From contig JAUZPR010000019.1 of assembly GCA_030705825.1 (NCBI GenBank), forward strand, positions 1 to 35,866: a stretch of 35,866 nt of DNA, read 5' to 3'. The position numbers and the translations under genes were made by a program. Origin of the DNA: Bacillota bacterium (lineage in GTDB: Bacteria > Bacillota > Clostridia > Acetivibrionales > JANLFN01). This document shows positions 17,085-17,442 of this stretch, in pieces; the first letter of the stretch is position 1, and every line of letters starts with the position of its first letter. Below the pieces are notes generated by a model, which was not told where the DNA came from, did not search any database, and worked only from the letters and a program-made list of their open reading frames with translations.

Positions 17085-17407
17085 TTTTTTACCCCCTACT
17101 TTTATTTAATAAATTATTTTTGCTGCATCTTAGCACAAATGCAGCGCAAGCTAAAGACAAATGTCTAATAGCCTTTTATTTAATTTGCATACAGCAAATT
17201 ACGCACTTTTTGCATACTGCCCGTACAACGGACAAAAGCATGAATCCAGATGCTTCACACATGGAAAATACGTTTGCTAATAAATTTTAATAAACCCTGC
17301 ACACAGCAAAGTTTTGCCAATATACGACATTGCATATTGTGTTCGGCATACACCTTTGTATACCCCAAAATAAAAGTTTGGGGATTTTTCAAGAAGAGTA
17401 TTTCAAT
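17085..17407 (-). ncRNA. Candidate long structured 5' leader of gdhA
   Basis: Minus-strand promoter TTGCAT-N17-TATAAT lies ~320 nt upstream of gdhA. The leader contains at least seven local inverted repeats. Confidence 0.45.
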
Positions 17408-17413
17408 AATGCA

Positions 17414-17442
17414 ATTATAGCAAATGGAAATTGCAAATGCAA
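17414..17442 (-). promoter_or_regulatory. SigmaA-like promoter for gdhA
   Basis: Minus strand TTGCAT (17442-17437), N17, TATAAT (17419-17414). Confidence 0.65.

Follow-up and report, generated by a model that had tools for sequence, protein, structure and literature searches.

A predicted ANTAR-target RNA in the 5' part of the gdhA leader at a clostridial gdhA-glnA locus

Why a glutamate dehydrogenase gene should be preceded by a long, hairpin-dense leader is the question raised by the locus studied here. In the window (the whole 35,866-nt stretch of DNA analysed, contig JAUZPR010000019.1 of a Bacillota genome), gdhA, encoding an NADP-specific glutamate dehydrogenase (GDH) of 445 aa (15747-17084, minus strand; NCBIfam NF006929, 772 bits against a cut-off of 536), lies upstream of glnA for a type I glutamine synthetase (14194-15537, minus strand; NCBIfam TIGR00653, 544 bits, cut-off 429). 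The gdhA Shine-Dalgarno sequence (SD), AGGGGG, is at 17092-17097 (minus strand). A sequence-only reading had proposed a promoter, TTGCAT (17442-17437)-N17-TATAAT (17419-17414), on the minus strand at 17414-17442, followed by a leader of about 320 nt rich in hairpins, and this proposal holds well. The promoter is absent from the list of a consensus promoter scan; the TTGCA/TATAAT pair recurs across the order, upstream of gdhA in most of the 31 leaders compared, and this conservation makes a predicted transcription start near 17407, and hence a leader of about 323 nt, likely. All seven inverted repeats that had been listed are in place, and the predicted fold of the leader (-99.6 kcal/mol) is far more stable than those of its shuffles (-71.8 kcal/mol, sd 5.0; z -5.55), none of which, among 100, reached as low a value.

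Our comparisons suggest that the 5' part of this leader is an ANTAR-target RNA, a prediction to which we give a probability of about 0.8 and for which the evidence of an RNA substrate is strong. Two adjacent hairpins on the transcribed strand, P1 (17345-17364; GGTATAC[AAAGGT]GTATGCC, or as RNA GGUAUAC[AAAGGU]GUAUGCC, 17364-17345) and P2 (17318-17339; CAATATGC[AATGTC]GTATATTG, or as RNA CAAUAUGC[AAUGUC]GUAUAUUG, 17339-17318), carry loops of exactly 6 nt with A at position 1 and G at position 4 (A1/G4), and are joined by the 5-nt linker GAACA (17344-17340). These hexaloops show on the transcribed strand and were missed when stems were earlier listed on the plus strand. Of 5000 shuffled versions of the leader, 2 produced a pair of A1/G4 hairpins whose stems reached 6 bp or more. 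In front of P1 lies a further hairpin, P0 (CCCCAAA/TTTGGGG; 17363-17383, minus strand), whose 5' CCCC is complementary to the gdhA SD and whose 3' GG also belongs to the first hexaloop stem, as had been suspected from the overlap of CCCCAAA/TTTGGGG with GGCATAC/GTATACC.

The element proper is about 68 nt long (17383-17317), and it is this core, rather than the whole of the roughly 320-nt leader as first proposed, that stands as a candidate regulatory element; conservation is lacking for most of the other stems. The leader comparison found no conservation of AAGCAT/ATGCTT, GTCCG/CGGGC or GCTGCAT/ATGCAGC. The stem AATTTGC/GCAAATT, which had also been listed, is present as hairpin P4 (AATTTGC-TGTAT-GCAAATT; 17182-17200, minus strand) and conserved in 5 of the 31 gdhA leaders (0.04 expected), within two families only, with hairpins of this AATTTGC-N5-GCAAATT type present in gdhA leaders of family f13.

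The dual motif, by comparison, is complete or nearly so at gdhA loci of five families (f1, f5, f12, f13 and f17), all of which also keep P0. A covariance model of P1-P2 (R1) scored 64.9 bits at the gdhA leader, with a next best score in the genome of at most 17.4 bits. Of the 58 genomes in the order, 13 gave a match above 50 bits, always 5' of gdhA; a scan of 391 genomes of the class yielded no score of this height outside the order. Two of these 391, both outside the order, scored 26-27 bits. When GdhA proteins were sought in a named collection, the hits came from more distant Clostridia, and dual hairpins occurred in 2 of 47 leaders, with poor stems, which is the level of chance. The gdhA element is carried by a genome (G045) that we take to be Clostridium thermocellum ATCC 27405, with whose published gene order it agrees.

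The sequence-only reading had staked its case on conservation and covariation of the stems in related leaders, and for the two hexaloop stems both were found. In a set of 11 sequences, from which a decayed copy (L009) and a near-duplicate (L032) were left out and to which G019 was added, 98% of cells were paired, with 8 two-sided changes and covariation above all 500 shuffles. Covariation was weaker in the full set of 12 sequences that includes the decayed copy, where 25 of 500 shuffles reached the observed score. Across relatives and both of the elements described here, all 55 loops had G4 and 51 of them had A1.

Three identities had been put forward for the leader: a riboswitch, a protein-binding leader or an sRNA target. 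The features of an ANTAR target favor the second, and there was no sign of a small-molecule aptamer or of an sRNA target. A ligand-binding leader responding to glutamine or 2-oxoglutarate would suit a nitrogen gene whose leader is long and structured, with a folding z of -5.55, but is the least probable reading we considered: what is conserved amounts to a pair of simple hairpins with a loop known from recognition by protein, the length 3' of P2 ranges from about 67 to 332 nt among relatives, and the Rfam scan that had been called for matched no family at its gathering score and nothing meaningful at E up to 5.

The likeness to known ANTAR-target RNAs is close. According to the main text of PMC3369931, the recognition element of EutV comprises dual hairpins with 6-nt A1/G4 loops, and linkers of 3 or 14 nt impair EutV; in the crystal structure of EutV, the flipped G4 makes the sole base-specific contact (PMC8934654). 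Like the eutP leader of the Enterococcus faecalis eut operon, an EutV target, the gdhA leader has two small hairpins with such loops and a short linker (5 nt, against 5-12 nt in EutV-target RNAs), and the AC/GU closing pairs of its P1 match those described there as required by EutV (main text of PMC3369931). Unlike the eutP leader, it lacks a terminator overlapping P2, has the additional P0 in front and precedes a different target gene. Ammonium-assimilation genes are likewise the targets in the glutamate synthase ANTAR regulon of Desulfotomaculum, also among clostridia-like Firmicutes, in a survey whose main text does not name gdhA (PMC3369931), and NitR, linked to glnA in Clostridium acetobutylicum, and Clo1313_2030, directly behind glnA in C. 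thermocellum, are ANTAR-type regulators of ammonium assimilation for which the text proposes no RNA target on gdhA (PMC4676874). Our literature search for ANTAR together with gdhA found no link in clostridia.

A second element lies behind glnA. Its P1 (14111-14134, minus strand; GCTTCAGTC[AATGGC]GACTGGAGC, or as RNA GCUUCAGUC[AAUGGC]GACUGGAGC, 14134-14111) and P2 (14089-14104, minus strand; AACCC[AACGGA]GGGTT, or as RNA AACCC[AACGGA]GGGUU, 14104-14089) precede a 51-aa Cys-rich ORF (MYTDNSCYLCKYL...; 13929-14084, minus strand) whose SD, GGAGGG, is contained in P2. The ORF had no Pfam or NCBIfam match; its homologues in relatives are frequently neighbors of gdhA or glnA, and the combination of ORF and two hairpins reappears in G012, G054, G035, G005, G017 and G023, and also in G028 and G019. 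The P1 stem covaries in seven of seven genomes, with two-sided change at four of five pairs and 100% pairing, and the structure as a whole covaries above all 500 shuffles, while A1 and G4 never change. Compensatory change holds the stems of both the gdhA element and the second element. With the second element, A1/G4 hexaloop RNAs are seen to be real and to recur at the gdhA-glnA locus. An A1/G4 hairpin pair was observed before an ORF of the 51-aa type in the nine intact copies inspected, from several genomes of the order.

These data bear on the possibility that the conserved letters are instead a DNA operator, with a repressor bound to GTATAC palindromes just 3' of the promoter. GTATAC repeats do occur in P1 and in the linker of relatives, near the transcription start, but each genome has one such site only, changes in the stems leave the 6-nt loops and A1/G4 intact, and the second element shares the loops with unrelated stem letters, so that an operator appears very improbable.

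The opposite strand of the same region holds a further candidate. On the plus strand at 13095-13252, a promoter-like TTGACC-N17-TACAAT is followed by two abutting A1/G4 hexaloop hairpins, TTTAAGT[AATGGC]GCTTAAG and GCTGCGG[AATGGA]TTGCAGC (13143-13181), and then by a near-perfect 18-bp terminator with a U-run (13205-13252); a nucleotidyltransferase ORF (13341-13811) lies downstream. The stretch folds with a z of -6.1 and could be an ANTAR-controlled leader or an ANTAR-sponge sRNA of about 120 nt. A DNA search of relatives for the element at 13143-13181 returned low-complexity matches only and thus no conservation.

The genome encodes candidate partners for such RNAs. Three distinct genes for receiver (REC)-ANTAR proteins are present: one on contig C226, located behind a glnA; one on C88/C199, which adjoins PII-like and AmtB-like genes; and one on C1, beside a PII-like gene. 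A search for dual hexaloops near the ANTAR, PII, AmtB and other glnA genes of the genome gave no convincing pair. We predict that a receiver-ANTAR protein of the cell would bind the tandem hairpins P1 and P2, and among the three the binder would most likely be the one encoded on C226. The best evidence for a C226-type partner is gene order in G019, where gdhA, glnA, an A1/G4 element with the small ORF and a C226-type ANTAR gene are consecutive. In three genomes of f13/g22 that carry the gdhA element, the sole ANTAR gene is divergent; in both of the two inspected, it is at the end of a GOGAT-glnA operon. The presence or absence of ANTAR genes was considered as support for the pairing and rejected as not discriminating: nearly all relatives have such genes, including most of those whose gdhA is without the motif.

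In Pfam, the C226 protein has matches to Response_reg and ANTAR, and its phospho-acceptor Asp is replaced by Glu, so that, in contrast to the EutV system, the candidate ANTAR protein of gdhA has a receiver without the acceptor. The loss of the acceptor in glnA-linked REC-ANTAR proteins suggests control by protein partners rather than by phosphorylation. Among glnA-linked REC-ANTAR proteins (L140:5116-5691, L135:8137-8709 and L138:5131-5715), the acceptor Asp is often changed to Glu or Asn.

The hexaloop pair probably lets the cell switch gdhA on or off at the mRNA level. Antitermination, in which protein-bound P1/P2 blocks a terminator overlapping P2 and turns gdhA on, is how EutV, NasR and AmiR are known to act (PMC3369931), and directly after P2 there is indeed a 9-bp hairpin, P3 (AAACTTTGC-TGTGT-GCAGGGTTT; 17292-17314, minus strand), in the predicted fold. 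P3, however, is weak and lacks a proper U-run, and it begins past the end of P2, so that the two are not exclusive. A search of the transcribed strand found no terminator 3' of P2 in any of 12 dual leaders, from this genome and 11 relatives, and no U-tailed one in particular; classical antitermination is therefore unlikely.

Control of translation is the mode we consider most likely, at odds slightly better than even. Folds predict that the CCCC of P0 (or CCTC) pairs with the SD at a probability of at least 0.35 in 9 of the 12 dual leaders, and, since P0 and P1 share GG, the P0, P1 and CCCC:SD helices cannot all form fully. Covariation of this anti-SD with the SD in the dual class (p 0.063) was not accepted, swapped SDs being nearly as good; GGGGG SDs also occur in gdhA leaders without hexaloop hairpins; and folding with P1/P2 forced left SD accessibility unchanged, so that the equilibrium model shows no switch. 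In mycobacterial and other actinobacterial ANTAR RNAs, translation control has been proposed and the motif is on or near the ribosome-binding site (PMC8164766). The second element is similar in that its SD is inside P2, where a bound ANTAR protein would sit on the SD of the Cys-rich ORF. The gdhA motif, in contrast, is about 220 nt upstream of its SD and would act through the long-range anti-SD. As a predicted ANTAR-target RNA, the gdhA element may have a new, translational design.

Leaders of family f4, a single genus, offer a further view of this arrangement. They carry a single hexaloop, e.g., GUGUAC[AAUGGA]GUAUGC, whose 5' arm is complementary to the stretch directly 3' of an anti-SD that itself pairs with the SD. 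Swapping arms between leaders weakened this pairing (p 0.008, six lineages), and in seven of nine leaders the upstream region holds no second site that pairs equally well with the hexaloop arm; the swap test of anti-SD and SD alone was not significant (p 0.12). Pairing of the hexaloop arm beside the anti-SD points to translational control of gdhA in that group. In the Ruminiclostridium-like genome G027 (L137), presumably R. cellulolyticum H10, no ANTAR gene was detected, yet the gdhA leader keeps the single hexaloop and its long-range partner.

How translational control would work can be sketched from these pairings. The local P0 hairpin would leave the SD open. Freed, the CCCC of P0 would pair with the GGGGG of the SD and close the ribosome site, and P1 stabilized by protein would favor this CCCC:SD pairing and turn gdhA off. 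The repressing signal would be nitrogen limitation, under which low-affinity GDH gives way to GS-GOGAT. If control is translational, repression under nitrogen limitation is the better, if modestly favored, polarity, a guess by analogy with C. thermocellum physiology. In that species, GDH activity was 25.0 under cellobiose limitation and 64-fold lower (0.39) under ammonium limitation, rising 160-fold to 62.3 under ammonium limitation after deletion of Clo1313_2032-2036 (GOGAT) (PMC9888227). Directly after the deleted genes come glnA and the ANTAR gene Clo1313_2030, apparently within a single operon. If the deletion were polar and the ANTAR protein lost, derepression of GDH would follow, and it could also result from a changed glutamine or 2-oxoglutarate signal. 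Under redox stress, the ANTAR transcript changed together with the rest of its cluster and gdhA mRNA did not, a neutral result (PMC4676874).

Alternatively, ANTAR binding may activate gdhA translation by holding P0/P1 in a way that frees the SD, as the pseudoknot-like arrangement of f4 would allow: there, the hexaloop arm pairs next to the anti-SD, and protein binding would remove that pairing. The C. thermocellum data, however, fit repression better: GDH was low under conditions in which the glnA-ANTAR operon should be active, and high once the upstream part of that operon had been deleted (PMC9888227).

Repression of gdhA translation by a glnA-linked ANTAR protein leads to a tentative picture of a circuit with two outputs, which we regard as possible rather than probable. 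A phosphorylation-dead ANTAR protein encoded beside glutamine synthetase would shut GDH translation by an exchange of hexaloop and anti-SD pairings, and would also control a 50-aa Cys-rich protein whose SD is in the second hexaloop hairpin; in one genus, the switch would have been reduced to one hexaloop with a newly gained long-range partner; and to this circuit C. thermocellum would owe its 64-fold control of GDH, an ammonium-dependent change for which the papers on that species give no mechanism. The hexaloop pair of gdhA is a candidate regulatory element covered by no Rfam family, and the second element ties ANTAR control to an uncharacterized Cys-rich small protein. GDH versus GS-GOGAT is the central choice in ammonium assimilation, and in cellulolytic clostridia a 64-fold GDH switch has consequences for the redox balance of biofuel strains and for their loss of amino acids; a 68-nt RNA and a named ANTAR gene make the question of that switch directly testable.
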